NCBI GenBank assembly: GCA_028823235.1
Contig: JAPKBW010000002.1
Coordinates: 1-64,000, forward strand
DNA: 64,000 nucleotides
Reading direction: 5' to 3'
DNA from: Longimicrobiales bacterium
Lineage (GTDB): Bacteria > Gemmatimonadota > Gemmatimonadetes > Longimicrobiales > Gaopeijiaceae
A program made the translations under genes and the position numbers. Positions 48,168-60,737 of this stretch are shown one piece after another (positions within the stretch are counted from its first letter, which is position 1; each line of letters starts with the position of its first letter). The notes beneath the pieces are model-generated. The model was not told the origin of the DNA. It did not search any database and was given only the letters and a program-made list of their open reading frames with translations.

Positions 48168-50471
48168 GTGACGATATCCTGTCCCGCGACATTCGACCCC
48201 TTGCTGGCCCGAGACCGCACATTGAGCGCTAACACCCGTGGAGGCGCCCGCCTGGTCCTTGTCATGCTTGCCGGTCTGGGGACCTTCGCAACTCCCGCGA
48301 TCTCACAGGTCACGCCGAGCGACTCTGCGAGCACGGCGCTGATCGACCCAGACCTGGCTCCTCGGCCATCAGCCTCTGCCACACGGGCCACGGGCCCCGT
48401 CAGCGTTGACGGAGTGCTGGACGACGCGACCTGGAGCGCGGCGGCTGTCATCAGCGATTTCTGGCAGCAGAAGCCGTTCACTGGCGCACCGGCTACGGAG
48501 CGTACCGAGGTCCGCATTCTGTACGACGACCAGAACCTGTACATCGGGGCCGAGTTGCACGACCAGCCAGGATATCGCCCGATCATCCCGACGCTGAAAC
48601 GGGATCCGAACACCCGGGACGGTGATGCGTTCGGCGTCATGTTCGACCCGTTCCTCGACGGGAAGACGGTCTTTTCTTTCTTCTTCAATCCGGGGGGTGC
48701 TGTTCGCGACATGCAGTCCGCCGACGACGGGCGTATCAACAACGCCGCGTGGGATGCGGCCTTCGATCTGCGCACCCGAGTGCATGACAGCGGCTGGACG
48801 CTCGAGTTGGCGATCCCCTGGTCGCAGCTCCGATTCGACCCGACTCGTGAGGAGCAGGTGTGGGGCATGAACCTGCTCCGGCGCATCCGGAGAAAGAACG
48901 AGGATTCTACATGGGCGCCGATGGATCTGCAGTGGCAGATCTATGTCAGCTCGCGAGGGGGCACGTTGCACGGCCTCGACGGGTTGGAGACGGTTCGGAA
49001 CCTCTCGATCAAGCCTTTCGCCCTCGTTTCGGAGCCCTCTGGTGATCTCCAGGTCGACACCGAGACGAGCTTCGAGGTCGGCGGAGATCTGAAGTACGGC
49101 ATCACGCCGGGAATGACGCTCGACCTCACCTTGAACACGGACTTCAGTCAGGTCGAGGTCGACCAAGAGCAGGTCAATCTCACGCGCTTCTCCCTGTTCC
49201 TGCCGGAGAAGCGTGAGTTCTTCCTGGAGAACGCGGGCGTCTTCCAGTTCGGCGACCAAGGCACCTACTCGACGCGCACCGGAGCGACGAGTCGGGATTT
49301 CACCCTCTTCCACTCGCGACGCATCGGACTCGCGCCCAATGGCTCGCCACTTCCGATTCTCGGAGGAGGGCGAGTGACCGGTACGGCAGGGCCGGTTTCG
49401 CTGGGCGTCCTGAACATGCAGACACTGCGGGACGGAGACTTCGACCCGGAGAATCTTACCGTGGCTCGTGTGCGGAGCGAGCCCGTGACTGGCCTCACCG
49501 TGGGTGGGCTCTTTGGTAACCGGGCGACGACGGACGGGAGTTCCGCGACGAACCAAAGCTATGGCGTGGACGCTGACCTCCAGGCGATCAACGGCTACCT
49601 GCTCGTGCAGTCGTACCTCGCAGCCACTGAGGGCCAGGATGCGATGGGAACGCCGATCGCGCGACAGTGGGCCGGGCGTTTCTCCGCGGGGTGGCGCGAT
49701 CCGTTCTGGGAGATCTTCGCGCTATACCGCCACTTCGACGATGGCTTCGATCCCGGCATGGGTTTCGTGCGCCGCACAGGGATCGACCACTCCTACGCGA
49801 CGATCGGCATTCGACCTCGACCCAACTGGCCCTGGATTCTTGAGCTGAACCCCTACGTTGAGTCGCAGGTCTTCGCGAACCCCGGGGGTCTCATGGAGAC
49901 GCGCCTGCACACTGGGGGCCTGGATCTGGATTTCCGTGACGGAAGCTCGGCGTCTCTAGGCGTGACCGATCGTTTCGAGCACGTCTTCGAACCATTCGCG
50001 GTTCGCGGCGCGGAGGTCATGCCGGGGCGGTACGACTTCCGTGAGGGGTCGGCCTCTTACCAAACGAGTGGCGCGCGCCGAATTTCAGGACGGGTGAACG
50101 TCGGCGGTGGTGGCTACTTCGGCGGCGATCGTTTTTCGGTAGGAGGAAATGTCCTCGGCCGTCTCGGACATCAAGTTCTCCTCCGACTTTCGGCGAATCA
50201 CAATGTGATCGAGCTGCCCGAACGGGCGGTGACCACCGCGGACGTCTACCGCGCGAATCTGGACGTGTTCTTTTCGGTGCGCCTGATGACCAGCGCTTTC
50301 GTCCAGTACAATGCAGCCTCAGAGGAGTTCGTGACCAATCTTCGCTTCCGTTGGATTCACGCCCCTCTGTCGGACCTTTACCTCGTCCTCACGGAGCGTC
50401 GTGACACCGTCGGTGACCGAGTTCTCGAACGCTTCATTACGCTCAAGTTCACGAAGTTGCTGGCGTTCTAG
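48168..50471 (+). CDS. DUF5916-type outer-membrane protein with CBM9-like N-terminal domain, copy 1
   Basis: The protein has up to 767 residues (GTG 48168; TTG 48222 or ATG 48264 would give a more normal signal, ending in ATPAISQ). The CBM9-like domain follows: GPVSVDGVLDDATWSAA, TEVRILYDDQNLYIGAELHD and SGWTLELAIPWSQLRFD. The DUF5916 barrel begins near GMTLDLTLNTDFSQVEVDQE and LTRFSLFLPEKREFFLENAG, and the protein ends in the typical aromatic LLAF. It is probably an outer-membrane carbohydrate- or metal-linked barrel; the function of the family is not established. A second copy lies at 56563. Confidence 0.88.
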   Translation: MTISCPATFDPLLARDRTLSANTRGGARLVLVMLAGLGTFATPAISQVTPSDSASTALIDPDLAPRPSASATRATGPVSVDGVLDDATWSAAAVISDFWQQKPFTGAPATERTEVRILYDDQNLYIGAELHDQPGYRPIIPTLKRDPNTRDGDAFGVMFDPFLDGKTVFSFFFNPGGAVRDMQSADDGRINNAAWDAAFDLRTRVHDSGWTLELAIPWSQLRFDPTREEQVWGMNLLRRIRRKNEDSTWAPMDLQWQIYVSSRGGTLHGLDGLETVRNLSIKPFALVSEPSGDLQVDTETSFEVGGDLKYGITPGMTLDLTLNTDFSQVEVDQEQVNLTRFSLFLPEKREFFLENAGVFQFGDQGTYSTRTGATSRDFTLFHSRRIGLAPNGSPLPILGGGRVTGTAGPVSLGVLNMQTLRDGDFDPENLTVARVRSEPVTGLTVGGLFGNRATTDGSSATNQSYGVDADLQAINGYLLVQSYLAATEGQDAMGTPIARQWAGRFSAGWRDPFWEIFALYRHFDDGFDPGMGFVRRTGIDHSYATIGIRPRPNWPWILELNPYVESQVFANPGGLMETRLHTGGLDLDFRDGSSASLGVTDRFEHVFEPFAVRGAEVMPGRYDFREGSASYQTSGARRISGRVNVGGGGYFGGDRFSVGGNVLGRLGHQVLLRLSANHNVIELPERAVTTADVYRANLDVFFSVRLMTSAFVQYNAASEEFVTNLRFRWIHAPLSDLYLVLTERRDTVGDRVLERFITLKFTKLLAF

Positions 50472-50645: not shown

Positions 50646-51554
50646 CTAGCGGTTCGCCCGACGCGCCTCGATTGCGACAACCGTTACATCCGCGCGGAAC
50701 TGAGCGATCTTACGCCCGATCTCCAGCCCCTCAGCCTCATCCATCTGGAGGCTGTTGATGTGATCGAGATTCACGCGCTGGCGTTGTGGCAGCCGGATGT
50801 GATCCGGGCTGTCGTTCATGATCAGTGACGAGATGTAGTAGTCGTCGTGGTAGCCATCGAGGTCTTTGTTGAGCTCGACCTTCCCGAGCACCTCGTTCTG
50901 GTATTGAAGTACATCACCGTAGTTGTAGTATTCGCGGATATGCGCGACGAGTACGTCATCATCACCCCAGGCAGCGGTGAGATTTTCTGCCACGCCGGCC
51001 AGCATACTTTGGTTACTGCCGCTATCGCCGAGGAAGAAGATCTCGGTGAAGCCCTGCGCCCGCAGGCTGGTTGCCATGTCCTTCAGGACCGCCGAGAGCG
51101 TCGCCGGTGAGAGAACAAGGCGACCGGGAGTTTCTGTCCCGTTGGGGTCGCCCTGGTCAATCATCACGATGGGCGCGACGAGGGTGTGGCCGAGTGTCCG
51201 CGCGATCGCGTCGCCCATGACCTTGAGCACGTGGTTGTGCTTTCCGGTCGTGAGATAGGGGCCGTTCGCCTCCATCGTTCCGTTCAGGATGAGCGCCGTC
51301 TTGTAACCATACGTGCCGACCAGATCGCGCATCTCGAGGATGGTCAGTTCGGACATCCAGACGTTGTCCGCTATCGCGATCGGTAACGCCATGTCGTAGC
51401 TGTAGGGTGCGGGCACGCGCTGGTCCGCCGGACGGATGACCTCGGGTGGCGGAGGCCTTTGCCCACGGCCCCTCCCGGCTTGGGCCATGATGGAGGTTGG
51501 CGCGATTGATATTGCGAGCGTGAGGGCGATTACGGTGGACGACAATCTCTTCAT
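50646..51554 (-). CDS. creatininase-like protein with non-canonical metal site, exported
   Basis: The 302-residue protein has signal LTLAISIAPTSIMAQ. The creatininase fold is recognisable (SELTILEMRDLVGTYGYKTA, then EIFFLGDSGSNQSM). However, the EQHGxHLPxxTD block reads EANGPYLTTGKHN: Glu95 is kept, His becomes Asn97 and Asp becomes His106. The HGGN block reads S178-G-S-N181, so its His is lost. A His/Asp-rich DGYHDDYYISSLIM replaces the Glu-bearing segment. The protein therefore cannot bind two metals as creatininase does, though a new site is possible. A similar form is known in exported proteins of uncharacterised role. Convergent with the DUF5916 gene. Confidence 0.8.
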   Translation of the reverse strand: MKRLSSTVIALTLAISIAPTSIMAQAGRGRGQRPPPPEVIRPADQRVPAPYSYDMALPIAIADNVWMSELTILEMRDLVGTYGYKTALILNGTMEANGPYLTTGKHNHVLKVMGDAIARTLGHTLVAPIVMIDQGDPNGTETPGRLVLSPATLSAVLKDMATSLRAQGFTEIFFLGDSGSNQSMLAGVAENLTAAWGDDDVLVAHIREYYNYGDVLQYQNEVLGKVELNKDLDGYHDDYYISSLIMNDSPDHIRLPQRQRVNLDHINSLQMDEAEGLEIGRKIAQFRADVTVVAIEARRANR

Positions 51555-51991: not shown

Positions 51992-53674
51992 CTACATCCC
52001 CCCGAACAGCCCTCCGAAGAAATCTCCGACATTCCATGACGGTCGTGCGTCTTCCTGCGCCACGATGTACCCGGTCAGGAAGTTCACTTTCGCGTGATCC
52101 GCACCTGCTTCGAAGTCGAACCCCTGGTCGGCTTCGTCGAAAGGAGTGTGATAACGCTCCTGACGGAACGCGGTGTTGATCGCTCCGCCGTCGCGCTCGT
52201 CGCCTGTCTCGAAGCCACCCTTGATGAACAGTGCCGGGATGCCCTGGCGAATGAAGCTGAAGTGATCGCTTCGAATGAAGAGCACCTGTTCCGGAATCGG
52301 ATCCGGCCCGATTCCCATACCAAGATGCTCGGCTGCCTGGGCCACGCTTCCACCCATGCTCGAGTGTTCGGCACCGTACGGTACGATGTCGAGTAGCGGA
52401 TGGAAGAGGAACGGCATGTCGAGCGAGAAGTTCGCGACGAGGCTCGACTGTGGGACCGTCGGGTTCTGGACGAAGTAGTCCGAGCCGAGCAGGCCCCACT
52501 CCTCCGCGGTGACGATCATGAAGAGGACGGATCTCCGCGGTGCGGTCGGAAGGCTCGCGTACGCTCGCGCGATCTCCAGAACGATCGAGACCCCCGAGGC
52601 GTTGTCGTGCGCCCCATTGTAGATGTCATCGCCGTCGACCTCGACGCCCACGCCGAAGTGGTCGACGTGCCCGACGTAGGTGACGTACTCGTCCCGCAGG
52701 TCCGGGTCGCTTCCCTCCAGCTTCGCGATGACGTTGTGGCTGTTCACATCCCGGTGCGTTGTCGTGGTCCGCATGGAGATCGTAGCGGCGAGATCGAACG
52801 CCTGGGGCTGATTCGTCGCAGCGGCCTCGATCGCCGCGTCGATTGAGGTCGGCGCACCCTGGAAGAGTGCGCCGGCCGCGGAGTGGTTGAGGGAGGCCGA
52901 GCCCCGCATGGCCACATTCCCACGATTCGGCGCCCCTGATGCGTCCAGCCACGCGAAGCTCCCGCGCTTCGCCCGCGCCGCATTCACGTCCCAGCGGAGC
53001 CGTGGATCGTTCGGCGCCCAGAATGCGAGTGTGCCTAGGGCTCCGCGGGCGATCGCCTCGGCACCCTTCGTGCCGCCGGACGAGTAGTACGCCCGCTCGT
53101 TGCTCGGGAACGAGGCCGGTGCTCCGCTCAGATAGAGGACGACCTTTCCTTCGACATCGACGTCTGCGTAGTCGTCGTAGCCCAGGTCAGGCGCGCTCAC
53201 GCCAAAGCCGACGAATACCACGCCCGCGTCTTCGATCTCGACCGTCTCGCGCAGCGGATCGGCACCGAGGTAGAAGTCGCGGTCATACTGCATGGTCGTC
53301 ACGCCGCCTCCGTTCGTGATCGTCATGCCGCTCGCACTCTCGACCACGGTACTGTGTCGGAGGGGCACTGCCTGACGATAGGTCCCGTCTTCTCCCGCCG
53401 GCTTGAGCTCGAGGCTCTTCAGAGCTTCCTCCGCGTAGCGGGCTCCGCCCTCGTAGCCCGGCGTGCCGGGTGCTCGGCCCGCGAGCGAGTCATGGGCGAG
53501 GACTCCGATATGGTGTTCGATGGCGTCGGCCTCGATTGCTGCCAGAGCAACCGCGACCTCTGGAGTGTCGAGGGACACCGGAGCGCCGCCGTCGCCCGAG
53601 CCACCACATCCGGCAAGCGCGAAGGACGAGAGAGCGAGGACGGAGAGCAGGGGGCCGCTGTTGCGAACTACCAT
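51992..53674 (-). CDS. M28-family metallopeptidase, lipoprotein (second copy)
   Basis: The 560-residue protein has lipobox LSSFALAGC. Layout matches the other M28 gene: PA-like insert at ~150-270, then YVGHVDHFGVG (His, Asp), GAHDNASGVSIVLEIA, IVTAEEWGLLGSDYF (Glu-Glu) and NFSLDM (Asp), and a late His in RYHTPFDEADQG. It is expected to trim peptides on the periplasmic side. It stands alone, followed on the same strand by the VapC relic. Confidence 0.92.
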   Translation of the reverse strand: MVVRNSGPLLSVLALSSFALAGCGGSGDGGAPVSLDTPEVAVALAAIEADAIEHHIGVLAHDSLAGRAPGTPGYEGGARYAEEALKSLELKPAGEDGTYRQAVPLRHSTVVESASGMTITNGGGVTTMQYDRDFYLGADPLRETVEIEDAGVVFVGFGVSAPDLGYDDYADVDVEGKVVLYLSGAPASFPSNERAYYSSGGTKGAEAIARGALGTLAFWAPNDPRLRWDVNAARAKRGSFAWLDASGAPNRGNVAMRGSASLNHSAAGALFQGAPTSIDAAIEAAATNQPQAFDLAATISMRTTTTHRDVNSHNVIAKLEGSDPDLRDEYVTYVGHVDHFGVGVEVDGDDIYNGAHDNASGVSIVLEIARAYASLPTAPRRSVLFMIVTAEEWGLLGSDYFVQNPTVPQSSLVANFSLDMPFLFHPLLDIVPYGAEHSSMGGSVAQAAEHLGMGIGPDPIPEQVLFIRSDHFSFIRQGIPALFIKGGFETGDERDGGAINTAFRQERYHTPFDEADQGFDFEAGADHAKVNFLTGYIVAQEDARPSWNVGDFFGGLFGGM

Positions 53675-54234: not shown

Positions 54235-56397
54235 ATGTCCGATTGGCTGCGCCTGGGCGTAACGGGCTACTTTGTCTTGTTGGCCTTTTCTTTTGTAGTG
54301 CCAGCGACTGCTGCGGGGCAACAGTTGCCTAAATTGCTAGGGTTTTCGCCGGAGGAAGCCGCGCGTCAGCTCGATTGGGAGCGGATCATGGCGACCGTGC
54401 CCGACGCTGAAATCATGCGAGGCTACCACTACGATCTCACGCGACGCCCCCACCACGCGGGAACGGAAGAAAACTACCAACTCGCGCTTTATCTGCGTGA
54501 CTTGTGGGACGACTTCGGCTTCGAGACCGAGATGGTGAAGTACGACATCCTGATTCCTTGGCCCGAGAGCCTCGAGCTTCGCCTCACAACTCCGGAGCGT
54601 ATCGAGCTGGCGGTCACCGAGCCTCCCATGGAAGAGGATCCGGACACCTACATTGAGGGTGGGCTGCCGGGGATGGCCGCTTATGTCACCTCAGGGCATG
54701 CAATCGGAGAGGTCGTTTACGCCAATTACGGCCGTATCGGCGACTACCGACACCTCGACGCCATGGGGGTATCGCTGAAGGGCAAGATCGTACTCGTGCG
54801 CTACGGCGGAAGCCCCGCCCAGATGCGCGGGATGAAGGTGAGGGAGGCCGCCGAGCGAGGCGCTGTCGGCGTGGTCATCTACTCCGACCCGGAAGATGAC
54901 GGGTACGTGAAGGGAGATATCTATCCGGATGGTCGTTGGCGTCCGTGGGAGGGCATCCAACGAGGAAGCTTCCTCGACGTACCGATCTATCCGGGTGACC
55001 CGCTCACCCCTTTCGAGCCATCGATTCCGGGAGTGGAGCGGATCTCGTTCGAGGAGGCTGGCAACATTCAGCGCATTCCGGTGCAGCCGATCTCTTATGG
55101 TGAGGCGTTGAAGATCCTGCGCCACGTGGGAGGGGACTTCGTGCCGCCGGATTGGCAGGGAGGGCTGCCGCTGACCTATCACATCGGACCGGGGCCGGCC
55201 GAGATCGAGATGGACGTGCAGTACGACTATCAGCAGCGCCCGGTGTGGAATGTTTTTGGTCGCGTTCAAGGTGCAGTGGAGCCCGAGAAGTTCGTCCTTG
55301 CGGGCGGCCACCGGGATGGGTGGGTGCTTGGTGCGCGCGATCCGACGAGCGGAGCGGTCTCCCTGCTCGAGACAGCGCGTGGTGTGTCCGAGGCGGTGCG
55401 CCAAGGCTTCCAGCCTCGTCGCAGCATCGTGTTTGCGAGCTGGGGTGGTGAAGATTTTTTCCTGCTTGGCTCGACCGAGTGGGGTGAGCAATTCCGCGAG
55501 GACCTGCAGGAAAACATGGTCCTTTACATCAATCGGGAGTCCTATACCGCTGGTGACTGGAGTGCTTCGGGCAATCATTCTCTTGAGCGATTCGTCGTCG
55601 AAGCGACCAGAGATGCGTCGCACCCCGAGGCGACGAGCTTGTACACGGCGTGGGCGGGACAAAGTCCTGGCCAGGCTCCCGGTTTGGGTGCCCTTGGTTC
55701 GGGCTCGGATTACACCGTCTTCCTCGACCACCTCGGAGTTCCGTCTCTGAGCTTGGGGTACGGTTCCCCGAATGGGATCTACCACTCGCTTTACGACACC
55801 TTCGAGTATTACCAGCGTTTTGGAGATCCGGGGTATCGTTACGGTGTGGCCCAGGCGGATGTTGTGGGGCGCATGGTCATGCGGATCGCCAACGCTGAAG
55901 TGCTCCCATTCGATTTCGCGGATGCCGCGACGACTATCGCCGGCTATGTCGATGAGCTGCTGGAGCTAGATTCCGATGTCCAGATCCGAGATGAACTGCG
56001 TGCGATCGGCTTGGCCAACGCACGGCTACGGTTCGCCGGGAGAGAAGCTAATGCGTCTTTTGGACGGGTCCTTGAGGGCGGGTCCGACTGGGTAGAAGAG
56101 CACGCTGACGCTTTGGCGGAGGTCAATCAGCTCATCATGGACACCGAGCGTGCTTTGCTCGACGAGCGCGGACTCTGGCGACGCCCGTGGTACCGAAACC
56201 TTGTGTACGCCCCGGGCTACTACGAGGGCTACGCGGCCAAGACGCTGCCCGGTGTACGTGAAGCGATCGAGGAAGGCGAGTGGGCCATAGCCCGTGAACA
56301 GGCGGGGATGTTGATCGATGCCCTCGACCGCGCGACGGCGATTGTGACGGAGGCCGGCGAAAAAGCTCGGGCCATTGCGCCCAGACTGGTTAGCTGA
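54235..56397 (+). CDS. M28B carboxypeptidase, glutamate carboxypeptidase II (PSMA)-like, exported
   Basis: The protein has about 720 residues from ATG 54235, which gives a clean signal ending in TAAGQ (ATG 54196 adds 13 residues). All PSMA domains are present: a protease part, a PA insert (GKIVLVRYGGSPAQMRGMKV) and a C-terminal helical dimerisation domain. Metal ligands by alignment: His359 and Asp369 (GGHRDGWVLGARDPTSG), Glu406-Asp407 (WGGEDFFLLGSTEW), Glu435 (YINRESYTAG) and His517 (GIYHSLYDTFEYY). Compared with PSMA, the ligand Glu425 is Asp407 and the ligand Asp453 is Glu435. It cleaves C-terminal Glu or similar residues. Confidence 0.92.
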   Translation: MSDWLRLGVTGYFVLLAFSFVVPATAAGQQLPKLLGFSPEEAARQLDWERIMATVPDAEIMRGYHYDLTRRPHHAGTEENYQLALYLRDLWDDFGFETEMVKYDILIPWPESLELRLTTPERIELAVTEPPMEEDPDTYIEGGLPGMAAYVTSGHAIGEVVYANYGRIGDYRHLDAMGVSLKGKIVLVRYGGSPAQMRGMKVREAAERGAVGVVIYSDPEDDGYVKGDIYPDGRWRPWEGIQRGSFLDVPIYPGDPLTPFEPSIPGVERISFEEAGNIQRIPVQPISYGEALKILRHVGGDFVPPDWQGGLPLTYHIGPGPAEIEMDVQYDYQQRPVWNVFGRVQGAVEPEKFVLAGGHRDGWVLGARDPTSGAVSLLETARGVSEAVRQGFQPRRSIVFASWGGEDFFLLGSTEWGEQFREDLQENMVLYINRESYTAGDWSASGNHSLERFVVEATRDASHPEATSLYTAWAGQSPGQAPGLGALGSGSDYTVFLDHLGVPSLSLGYGSPNGIYHSLYDTFEYYQRFGDPGYRYGVAQADVVGRMVMRIANAEVLPFDFADAATTIAGYVDELLELDSDVQIRDELRAIGLANARLRFAGREANASFGRVLEGGSDWVEEHADALAEVNQLIMDTERALLDERGLWRRPWYRNLVYAPGYYEGYAAKTLPGVREAIEEGEWAIAREQAGMLIDALDRATAIVTEAGEKARAIAPRLVS

Positions 56398-56562: not shown

Positions 56563-58797
56563 GTGGCGGTGATCTGGCGTACGATCGGACTGGTTTTATT
56601 GGTCGCTGCGCTGACGGGTTCGACGATGGTGTACGCCCAAGAAGCGGGGATCTCACCGGGGCCCGTTGCGCCGGAGAGCCTGGCCCGACCGAGCCTCCGC
56701 GCGTTTCGAGCCCAAGGCCCCATTACGCTCGATGGGCTATTAGACGAGGGATCCTGGAGCGTCGCAGATAGCACGACGGGCACCTTCTGGCTGACTCAGC
56801 CGGAGGCGGGGTTCCCGGCCCCAGACCGTACGGTGATCCGCATGATGTACGACGACGAAGCGCTGTACATGGGCGCCGTTCTTTACGATCCGGAACCCCA
56901 CCGATTGGTCTCTGCCGGACTTGAGCAGGATTTCAGCCCTCAGGCTTCCGACATGTTTGGCGTGGCGATCGATGCGAGCCGCGACAAGCAGAGCGCGTAC
57001 GTCTTCGGTGCGAACCCCGCGGGTGCGAAGTGGGACGCCCAGTCGTTCAACGACGGGGCCGCGATCAACTCGGCGTGGGAAGGTATCTACGAGGTCGAGA
57101 CGAGTACCTTCGCCGAAGGTTGGATCATGGAGATGCGGATCCCTCTGACCACTCTCCGCTTTCCAGGAGGAGAGGGCGAGCAAACCTGGGGGCTCAACTT
57201 CAGCCGTCAGGTTCGGCGCCGGAACGAGTACGCCACCTGGGCGGCGATTCCCCGGCAGTTTAGAATTTTTCGGATGTCTGAGGCGGGTACACTTGAGGGC
57301 TTGCCAGCGTTCGAGCCCGGTCGGAATCTACAGGTCAAACCGTTCTTCACTGGATCGAGCCGTGAGGGTCAACAATACCCCGATGGCGCCGTCCGCGAGT
57401 ACGACGTGGGATTCGACGCGAAGTGGGCCGTAACACCGCGACTCGTCATGGATCTCACGGCGCTTACGGACTTCTCTCAGGTCGAGGCGGATGAGGAGCA
57501 GGTCAACCTGACCCGATTTTCACTCTTCTTTCCAGAGAAGCGGGACTTTTTCTTAGAAAACGACGGCATTTTCACCTTCGCGGACGATGCGGCTCGGGCT
57601 TTCAGGTCCGGAGCTAGTCCTCGGAATTTCAAGCTCTTTCACTCCCGCAGAATCGGGCTTTCCGACTCCCGTGAGCCTCTGCCGATCGGTGGAGGCGCCC
57701 GTCTTTCCGGTCGCATCGGTCGCTACGAGGTCGGGCTCATGGAGATGCAGACGCTACGCGAAGGGAATAGTCCGGCGGAGAATTTTGCGGTCGCGCGGGT
57801 GCGTCGCAGTGTTTTCACGCGATCGGACGTCGGCTTCATTTTCGTGAACCGCCAAGCGACTTCTCTCTCCGCCGGGGAGAGCTACTCCAGGGCCGGTGGA
57901 GTGGACGCCAATTTCCGCTTTGACCGGCTACAGGTGAACGCGTACGCCGCTCTCACGGAAGACCCGGGCCCCGACGGTGACCGGTCTATCGGGACCGTGC
58001 AAGTGGGGTGGCGAGATCCGGTCTTCGACTTCTCGGTCCTCGGAAAGCACGTAGGCGGTGACTTCAGACCTGAGGTCGGATTCGTGAGTCGGACTGACGT
58101 CAACCAATGGTTCGGCTCCGGGGGGGTGCACCTTCAGAGGCCCGTGTCATGGCTTACGGAGGTGAACCCATATATCGACGTAACCGAGTCCTACTCAGCT
58201 AGCGGAGACTTTGAGAGTCGCGAGGTCAAGCCCGGCTTGACCGTGATCGCCAACGACGGGGGCCGCTTCAGTGCTGACTTCTCCCGTCGACAGGAGCATG
58301 TGAGCGAGGCAAGCACGATCCTTGGTGTCCCACTGGCGGCCGGAGACTACGCGTTCGATGTAGTATCCCTCAGTTACACCTCCAGTGGTGGTCGCATCCT
58401 GTCTGGCAACGTCAAGTTCAGCACCGGCGAGTTTTTCGGCGGCGATCGGTCATCCGTATCCGGAACAGTGACGATCAGGCCCAACGAGCACCTACTTCTC
58501 GAGGGGAGTGCGCAGAGGAATCGTATCGAACTGGGTGGGGCCCCGATCGATGCAGATCTTTTTCGTGGGCGCATGCAGTTCGGATACAACACACGCACTT
58601 TCCTCTCGTCATTCGTGCAGTACAACCGTGTGGCGAAGGAGCTGGTTACAAATGTGCGCTTCAACCTGATCCATGCACCGCTCAGCGATATTTTCCTGGT
58701 CTTTTCCGAGCGCCGTCGAACCCAGCCGATCGCAGGTGAAGCCATGGTTATCGATCGGGGACTCACCCTCAAGGTGACGCGTCTCGTCCAGTTCTGA
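56563..58797 (+). CDS. DUF5916-type outer-membrane protein with CBM9-like N-terminal domain, copy 2
   Basis: The 744-residue protein starts at GTG 56563 with a signal ending in MVYAQ. Same architecture as copy 1: GPITLDGLLDEGSWSVADST, TVIRMMYDDEALYMGAVLYD and EGWIMEMRIPLTTLRF, then LTALTDFSQVEADEEQVNLT and FSLFFPEKRDFFLENDG, ending in LVQF. It follows the M28B peptidase by 165 bases on the same strand and may share its transcript. The pairing of DUF5916 barrels with large exported peptidases recurs in this window. Confidence 0.9.
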   Translation: MAVIWRTIGLVLLVAALTGSTMVYAQEAGISPGPVAPESLARPSLRAFRAQGPITLDGLLDEGSWSVADSTTGTFWLTQPEAGFPAPDRTVIRMMYDDEALYMGAVLYDPEPHRLVSAGLEQDFSPQASDMFGVAIDASRDKQSAYVFGANPAGAKWDAQSFNDGAAINSAWEGIYEVETSTFAEGWIMEMRIPLTTLRFPGGEGEQTWGLNFSRQVRRRNEYATWAAIPRQFRIFRMSEAGTLEGLPAFEPGRNLQVKPFFTGSSREGQQYPDGAVREYDVGFDAKWAVTPRLVMDLTALTDFSQVEADEEQVNLTRFSLFFPEKRDFFLENDGIFTFADDAARAFRSGASPRNFKLFHSRRIGLSDSREPLPIGGGARLSGRIGRYEVGLMEMQTLREGNSPAENFAVARVRRSVFTRSDVGFIFVNRQATSLSAGESYSRAGGVDANFRFDRLQVNAYAALTEDPGPDGDRSIGTVQVGWRDPVFDFSVLGKHVGGDFRPEVGFVSRTDVNQWFGSGGVHLQRPVSWLTEVNPYIDVTESYSASGDFESREVKPGLTVIANDGGRFSADFSRRQEHVSEASTILGVPLAAGDYAFDVVSLSYTSSGGRILSGNVKFSTGEFFGGDRSSVSGTVTIRPNEHLLLEGSAQRNRIELGGAPIDADLFRGRMQFGYNTRTFLSSFVQYNRVAKELVTNVRFNLIHAPLSDIFLVFSERRRTQPIAGEAMVIDRGLTLKVTRLVQF

Positions 58798-59162: not shown

Positions 59163-60737
59163 ATGGACTCGTTTGAACGAACGCCTTGGACGCGTGGGCT
59201 CGGGGCTACCCTCCTCCTTCTGGTGTGCGCCCTGGCCTTCACCGGCTGCACCTCCGACGGCCAAGGCGACTATCGTGTGGCTGTCATCAAATTCCAACAA
59301 GAGACGTGCACCTTCTGCCCGGGTGGGGATGCGCCGACGGAAGATTGGCTGCGCCTCGGTCCACTTCTCGTCGCCGACCAAGTTCTCACTGACGGAGGGG
59401 GGTACATCGATGGCTTTGTCGCGCAGGCCGCTGACTACCCGGACGTAGAGCTCCTCGGTCTTACGTCTCCGGACAATCTCTTCGGTGGTTCGTCCCGTTC
59501 ATGGAGTACCCAGGAGTCGTTCGACACCTTTGTGGGTGGCATGGTGGAGGAGCTCAAAACGGCGCTTCCTGTGGATGGTGTCTATCTGGCTCTGCACGGA
59601 GCGTTGGCCGTTCGTGGGGTCCCCCGCCCGGAAGCGGAGATCGCTCGGCGCTTTCGTGAGATCGTCGGGCCGGATGTGCCAATCGCGGGCACGTTCGACC
59701 TACATGGCAACGAAGATGAGCAGTTCCTAGAGCACGCTGATTTCGCATTCGTGACGAAACGGTTCCCGCATTACGACGACGCGATCCAGGGCGCGCGAGC
59801 TGCCCGAGCGCTTCATCGCGCGATGTCGGGCACCTACACCTCGACGACTGCCACCCGGAAGCCCGGTATCATCACGCCGACGGTCCTCCAATGGACGGGA
59901 GCCGCGCCCGCCAGTGATATCATGGAGCGCGCGCGTCGCTGGGAGGCGCGCGCGCAGGATGTCTTCGTGAGTGTCTTCTATGGCTTCCCTTGGTCGGACG
60001 TGCCGGACGTCGGGGCGACCGTCCACGTGATGACGAACAACGATCAGGCTCTCGCCGACGAGATCGCGGACGACATGAACGAGTATATGTGGCGTGTGCG
60101 TGAATCGTTCGCGAACGGTGGTTTCCCTCGCCCTAACGCGGCGGCGCCCATGGTCGTAGAGGCCATCGCAAACGGACAGACACCCGTTGCCATCGGAGAC
60201 TACTCGGATCGGCCCGGCGACGCTACGCATATCACTCGTGCGTTCGACGCAGCCGGGGTGTCCAGAGTTCTATACGGCGCGATCAGTTCGCCCGCGACGC
60301 TCGACGCACTGCAGTCTGTCGGTGCTTCTGTCGGTGATGCCTTCGACTATGAAATCGGTGGTTATACCGCATCCGGCGGAGACCCGTACCGCATCGAGGG
60401 CACGATCGTGTACGTGGGTCCTTGGGCCGGCTACGATTACACCGCGGTCGTGAACTACGGAGACGGCAACACGGTATTCATTGCGCCGGCGTACACGCAG
60501 ATCATGTATCCGGAGGACTTCGCGGTGGGTGGGATTGACCCGGCGGACTACGATGTCTTTGTGGTGAAGTCGCGCGCTCACTTCCGTCGCGGCTTTGATG
60601 AGACGGGCTTCGCCAAGACGATCATCATCGTCGAGGCGACTGGGCCTTTCATGGGGACCACGTTCCTTGATGCGCTGCCGTACGAAAACGTCGACCTGAG
60701 TATGCTCTACCCTTACGGGGCACCCGTGGCTCGATGA
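59163..60737 (+). CDS. M81-family metallopeptidase (MlrC-like), lipoprotein
   Basis: The 524-residue protein has lipobox ALAFTGC. The MlrC fold is shown by VAVIKFQQETCTFCPG (family ExNTFxP region, with Cys in place of Asn), VYLALHGALAVRG, IAGTFDLHGN with metal residues, and TKRFPHYDDAIQGA; a C-terminal domain starts near PVAIGDYSDRPGDATH. MlrC takes part in microcystin-fragment breakdown; relatives hydrolyse varied peptides or amides. Lipidation and export are unusual for the family. A 22-bp palindrome lies downstream at 60839. Confidence 0.9.
   Translation: MDSFERTPWTRGLGATLLLLVCALAFTGCTSDGQGDYRVAVIKFQQETCTFCPGGDAPTEDWLRLGPLLVADQVLTDGGGYIDGFVAQAADYPDVELLGLTSPDNLFGGSSRSWSTQESFDTFVGGMVEELKTALPVDGVYLALHGALAVRGVPRPEAEIARRFREIVGPDVPIAGTFDLHGNEDEQFLEHADFAFVTKRFPHYDDAIQGARAARALHRAMSGTYTSTTATRKPGIITPTVLQWTGAAPASDIMERARRWEARAQDVFVSVFYGFPWSDVPDVGATVHVMTNNDQALADEIADDMNEYMWRVRESFANGGFPRPNAAAPMVVEAIANGQTPVAIGDYSDRPGDATHITRAFDAAGVSRVLYGAISSPATLDALQSVGASVGDAFDYEIGGYTASGGDPYRIEGTIVYVGPWAGYDYTAVVNYGDGNTVFIAPAYTQIMYPEDFAVGGIDPADYDVFVVKSRAHFRRGFDETGFAKTIIIVEATGPFMGTTFLDALPYENVDLSMLYPYGAPVAR

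Follow-up and report, generated by a model that had tools for sequence, protein, structure and literature searches.

The gene P0001 of a Longimicrobiales bacterium encodes an M28B peptidase in which two metal ligands of the active site, a Glu and an Asp in canonical family members, have been exchanged for an Asp and a Glu. The exchange is neither chance nor error: it marks a small clade of Gemmatimonadota proteins that is under strong purifying selection. What an earlier note on the window (the whole stretch of 64,000 nucleotides analysed here) had described as a matched swap is better read as two successive changes. The best reading, in our view, is that the lengths of the terminal ligands have been re-set in what would be an active, secreted, two-metal exopeptidase.

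A GCPII-like peptidase and its metal ligands

The open reading frame of P0001 starts with an ATG at 54235 and is open throughout to the stop at 56397. The protein is full length: Pfam finds PA, Peptidase_M28 and TFR_dimer domains in one chain, above the curated cut-offs, and the closest solved structures are human glutamate carboxypeptidase II (GCPII, E about 1e-111), GCPIII and the NAALADase-like protein. An AlphaFold2 model (mean pLDDT 94, from a 44-row alignment; helix 3-27 is of low confidence) has the fold of GCPII (PDB 3d7f; TM 0.85, rmsd 2.5, about 700 columns). Domains, alignment and fold thus bear out the PSMA-like (M28B) identity proposed in the earlier note. The features, all on the forward strand, are as follows.

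54235..56397, +, M28B (PSMA/GCPII-like) peptidase gene P0001, 720 aa (ORF, Pfam, HMMER alignment, AlphaFold2 model)
54235..54321, +, probable signal peptide, residues 1-29 (read from sequence: a hydrophobic core followed by ATAAGQQ)
54706..54966, +, PA domain, residues 158-244 (Pfam PF02225, E 2.4e-9)
55249..55812, +, Peptidase_M28 catalytic domain, residues 339-526 (Pfam PF04389, E 6.4e-18)
55309..55311, +, His359, corresponding to GCPII His377 (metal site 1, Zn2; alignment to GCPII)
55336..55341, +, Arg368-Asp369, with Asp369 corresponding to the bridging ligand Asp387 (alignment to GCPII)
55444..55446, +, Gly404, corresponding to GCPII Asp422 (121-row alignment)
55450..55452, +, Glu406, corresponding to the catalytic base Glu424 (alignment to GCPII)
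55453..55455, +, Asp407, corresponding to the ligand Glu425 (metal site 3, Zn1), Glu to Asp (alignment to GCPII)
55534..55539, +, Arg434-Glu435, with Glu435 corresponding to the ligand Asp453 (metal site 4, Zn2), Asp to Glu (alignment to GCPII)
55780..55785, +, Tyr516-His517, corresponding to the oxyanion-hole Tyr552 and the ligand His553 (alignment to GCPII)
56095..56343, +, TFR-like dimerisation domain (TFR_dimer), residues 621-703 (Pfam PF04253, E 6e-21)

In GCPII, Zn2 is bound by His377 and Asp453 and Zn1 by Glu425 and His553, with Asp387 as the bridging ligand, Glu424 as the base and Tyr552 as the oxyanion-hole residue (PMC8538779). The HMMER alignment of P0001 to GCPII has zero gaps through FASWGGEDFFLLGSTEW versus FASWDAEEFGLLGSTEW and through YINRES versus YINADS, and since both motifs align without gaps, any other register is implausible. 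The ligands are therefore in place rather than elsewhere in the alignment. Both replacements named in the earlier note, Glu425 by Asp407 and Asp453 by Glu435, stand with exact residue numbering, as does the retention of Glu406, His359, Asp369 and His517.

The architecture, the fold, the His/Asp/His ligands, the catalytic Glu and the oxyanion Tyr are common to P0001 and GCPII/GCPIII, and the second-shell counterparts of GCPII Asp379 and Asp520 are also retained. Differences from GCPII are the two exchanged ligands, the change of Asp422 to Gly, and the glutamate-pocket and S1 arginine positions. All five metal positions still hold side chains able to bind metal. P0001 thus has the three-domain chain, the GCPII fold, the catalytic Glu, both metal His and the bridging Asp of M28B, but Asp407 and Glu435 where the family has Glu at site 3 and Asp at site 4. 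Because M28B also includes members that lack metal ligands, such as the transferrin receptor, we regard P0001 as a variant of the family and not as a non-member.

Two arginines, Arg368 (55336-55338) and Arg434 (55534-55536), directly precede the bridging Asp and Glu435. Both are invariant in a seven-member clade (the NRES clade, described below) and uncommon in the other aligned rows, and may belong to the re-set site.

Distribution of the exchange and gene neighbourhood

Homologs were gathered from the genus, family, order, class and phylum of the window and aligned with human GCPII, giving 121 non-redundant rows. The canonical pair (H-D-E-E-D-H) is present in 114 of these, namely 113 bacterial proteins and human GCPII. 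Four rows have the exchange: the window protein, L022 (= G048), L023 (= G049) and L057 (= G345). The remaining three, L058 (G165), L145 (G073) and L144 (G297), have Glu at the second site alone. The other exchange proteins are 73-74% identical to that of the window and have the same exchange in other codons; the four come from four Gemmatimonadota genomes, each a different species, in three genera and two families. Comparison with many bacterial M28B sequences, which the earlier note had proposed as a check, thus makes the exchange a clade mark.

Wider searches kept the clade small. When searched with the clade alignment, 84,980 species genomes yielded two records only, apparently the G049 and G345 contigs. 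Among the viral contigs searched there was no relative, and a plasmid search gave a single relative, of 39% identity. The DNA pattern for Tyr-x-Asn-Arg-Glu-Ser-Tyr matched seven of 394 genomes of the class, which are the four exchange genomes together with G165, G073 and G297; the reversed control had no match among the matches listed. Of 395 genomes searched for an Asp at the first site with a DNA pattern for W-[DG]-[AG]-E-D, the exchange genomes were the only four to match, so that no genome had the Glu-to-Asp change without the second-site Glu, although the change could be missed in other contexts because the pattern fixes this one. In the literature, of which our coverage was partial, we found no published report of an M28B site that has an Asp/Glu pair but is otherwise intact.

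The window genome also encodes a canonical paralog, L002, with 37% identity to P0001. Gemmatimonadota M28B paralogs, including L002, are approximately 35-45% identical to P0001 and alike in domain architecture by alignment, but all have the Glu/Asp pair, retain Asp422 and fall on separate branches of the tree. Five canonical homologs, L052 (G121), L062 (G414), L113 (G155), L126 (G057) and L133 (G340), have a single in-frame stop within the stretch that matched; these are possibly pseudogenes or assembly errors, and some of the stops may be at the edge of the match.

There is no conserved operon around the exchange genes, whose neighbours are unshared among the exchange genomes except that a DUF5916-type gene lies near the copy in G048. 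This gene (L146:6727-9108) is some 2.5 kb away from the exchange gene of G048 and is 45% and 42% like two DUF5916/CBM9-like genes of the window, themselves related to each other, which flank the region at 48168-50471 (+) and 56563-58797 (+). The stretch around P0001 is rich in predicted hydrolases. Directly upstream and divergent lies a second M28 peptidase (51992-53674, -), with an M28 domain only and canonical-looking motifs; a creatininase-family gene is found at 50646-51554 (-), an M81/MlrC-like gene at 59163-60737 (+), and an additional M28 match just beyond the window (G000:C2:73796-74092).

Order of the two changes

We built a tree with the two trait residues masked. Support (bootstrap/SH-aLRT) is 92/85 for a clade of seven members, 100/100 for the exchange proteins and 99/98 for L058, L144 and L145, which form the sister group of the exchange clade. 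Like P0001, these three proteins have Asn-Arg-Glu-Ser, in which the Glu occupies the Asp453 position, and an Arg before the residue corresponding to the bridging Asp387; unlike P0001, they keep Glu at the Glu425 position, and are thus single-change intermediates. Parsimony makes it most likely that the Asp-to-Glu change arose at the base of the seven-member clade and that the Glu-to-Asp change followed on the stem leading to the exchange proteins. Given these relatives, a single simultaneous swap is not supported: the two changes are separable, and in this respect the matched swap of the earlier note is not borne out.

Since L058, L144 and L145 have only Asp to Glu, this change is evidently tolerated alone. 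Glu to Asp, on the other hand, is seen only on a Glu background, which makes compensation plausible. The seven-member clade, however, holds approximately 10% of the total tree length, so an unrelated Glu-to-Asp change would land there about one time in ten by chance, and the evidence that the two changes compensate each other is suggestive only. The compensated metal site put forward in the earlier note is a suggestion based on a single nested pair of changes.

The stem of the exchange clade is long, at 1.29 changes per column compared with 0.09 for the median inner branch. The counterpart of GCPII Asp422 is Asp in all 114 canonical rows, but L144 and the four exchange proteins have Gly there. 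Glu to Asp is placed on the same long, fast branch as the loss of an otherwise invariant Asp. The long stem and the loss of Asp422 also fit a relaxed or changed function.

Function of the exchanged site and competing explanations

Pairwise Nei-Gojobori dN/dS is 0.05 between L022 and L023, and 0.06-0.10 between the window protein and the other exchange proteins, with L022 at about 0.1, the latter values being rough because dS is near saturation. The exchange proteins are approximately 80% identical to one another over the catalytic domain and 81-88% over the PA domain, compared with approximately 60% over the dimerisation domain, and all four share both metal His, the bridging Asp, the catalytic base and the oxyanion Tyr without variation. 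This pattern of conservation would be that of a working enzyme, and the low dN/dS and the better-kept catalytic domain support the view of the earlier note that function has not been lost. Altered metal use by the exchanged site, which that note had also raised, is plausible.

We consider it fairly probable that, as a whole, the data reflect an active, secreted, dimeric two-metal M28B exopeptidase whose ligand lengths were exchanged in two steps. Such an enzyme would keep two metal ions and the mechanism of the family, with Glu406 deprotonating a metal-bridging water and Tyr516 sitting in the oxyanion hole. Asp407 would replace Glu at the metal of His517, and Glu435 would replace Asp at the metal of His359. 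The Asp-to-Glu step would have come at the base of the small clade, and the Glu-to-Asp step, with Asp422 to Gly, on one fast-evolving branch. With one ligand shorter and the other longer, the metal pair would, in the simplest case, slide along its axis with its spacing kept. A fuller version, in which two compensating steps traded the ligand lengths, shifted the metal pair and gave a new metal or substrate preference, while the single-change type is still extant, is a conceivable but unlikely account.

As for the substrate, GCPII binds the alpha-carboxylate through Arg210, Tyr552 and Tyr700, and Asn257 and Lys699 hold the side chain of the glutamate. The first three have retained counterparts in P0001 (Arg198, Tyr516 and Tyr666). 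Asn257 and Lys699 correspond to Ser245 and Gly665, so that the pocket is not that of GCPII proper, and the S1 arginines 463, 534 and 536 correspond to Ser, Ser and Gly. This combination suggests that the C-terminal residues or dipeptides cleaved off are other than glutamate; the enzyme would be a carboxypeptidase or dipeptidase with no preference for glutamate, like its canonical relatives in the phylum.

It is also possible, though we think it rather unlikely, that the exchange reflects changed chemistry, with another metal pair or a non-peptide reaction such as acyl-amino acid or amide hydrolysis. The long stem, the lost Asp422 and the clade-specific Arg368 and Arg434 beside the ligands would agree with this, as would the canonical paralogs in the exchange genomes (L002, L118, L119 and L125), whose presence would leave the exchange copy free to change. 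A further argument comes from M20 peptidases. Their second terminal ligand is Glu, as in P0001, in the working enzymes carboxypeptidase G2 (CPG2) and aminoacylase-1, and Glu versus Asp at this equivalent position is reported to separate aminoacylases and carboxypeptidases from aminopeptidases and dipeptidases (PMC6271292). These M20 enzymes, which belong to a different family of clan MH, retain a Glu after the catalytic Glu and have another dimerisation domain. The rule, however, is not simply transferable to M28B, since GCPII is a carboxypeptidase with Asp there. The absence of a conserved neighbourhood that would hint at a pathway also speaks against changed chemistry. (According to one sentence in section 5 of PMC6271292, AAP has Glu at the CN2 Asp195 position. 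This disagrees both with Table 1 of PMC7522609, which gives Asp179 for 1amp, and with what PMC6271292 itself states later, where CPG2 and aminoacylase-1 are named, and is probably a slip. Our search for papers on DapE ligands found none.)

It is improbable that P0001 is, in the manner of GPAA1 or the transferrin receptor, a pseudoenzyme that is losing its metals and is retained for a role in binding or dimerisation. Human GPAA1, the M28-like GPI transamidase subunit (GPAA1/GAA1), does have the same exchanged pair at the two positions, Asp188 and Glu226 (PMC7522609 Table 1), and cryo-EM and mutants indicate that its site does not bind zinc and is not a working one (PMC9098846). But GPAA1 lacks both metal His (replaced by Pro149 and a Tyr), a loss that is absent from the exchange proteins, which keep these along with the bridging ligand, the catalytic base and the oxyanion Tyr. 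Of the three domains, furthermore, the dimerisation domain is the one under the weakest selection in the clade; the PA domain and the catalytic domain are the most strongly constrained.

Near-neutral drift, in which either acid works at either position with no functional effect, is very doubtful. The maintenance of Asp to Glu alone in three lineages, and the use of either acid at the second position by M20 enzymes (PMC6271292), are in its favour, but the invariance of both positions in 114 of 114 other rows means that they are not free in general. Finally, a sequencing, assembly or alignment artefact can be dismissed, even though every member genome is a draft and at least two are metagenome-assembled: an alignment shift or frame error is ruled out by the gap-free alignment of both motifs, anchored on either side, and a sequencing error by the recurrence of the exchange, in differing codons, in four independent genomes, which leaves no correction to a standard Glu/Asp pair.

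Because relatives with the first change alone are extant, the origin of the exchange can be studied step by step. With natural one-step and two-step proteins, one could measure how each ligand influences metal choice, spacing and specificity, and the clade offers a test of compensation in the evolution of first-shell metal ligands. If, on the other hand, the activity proves ordinary, both positions would tolerate either acid, and motif-based calls of active and inactive metallopeptidases would be weakened.
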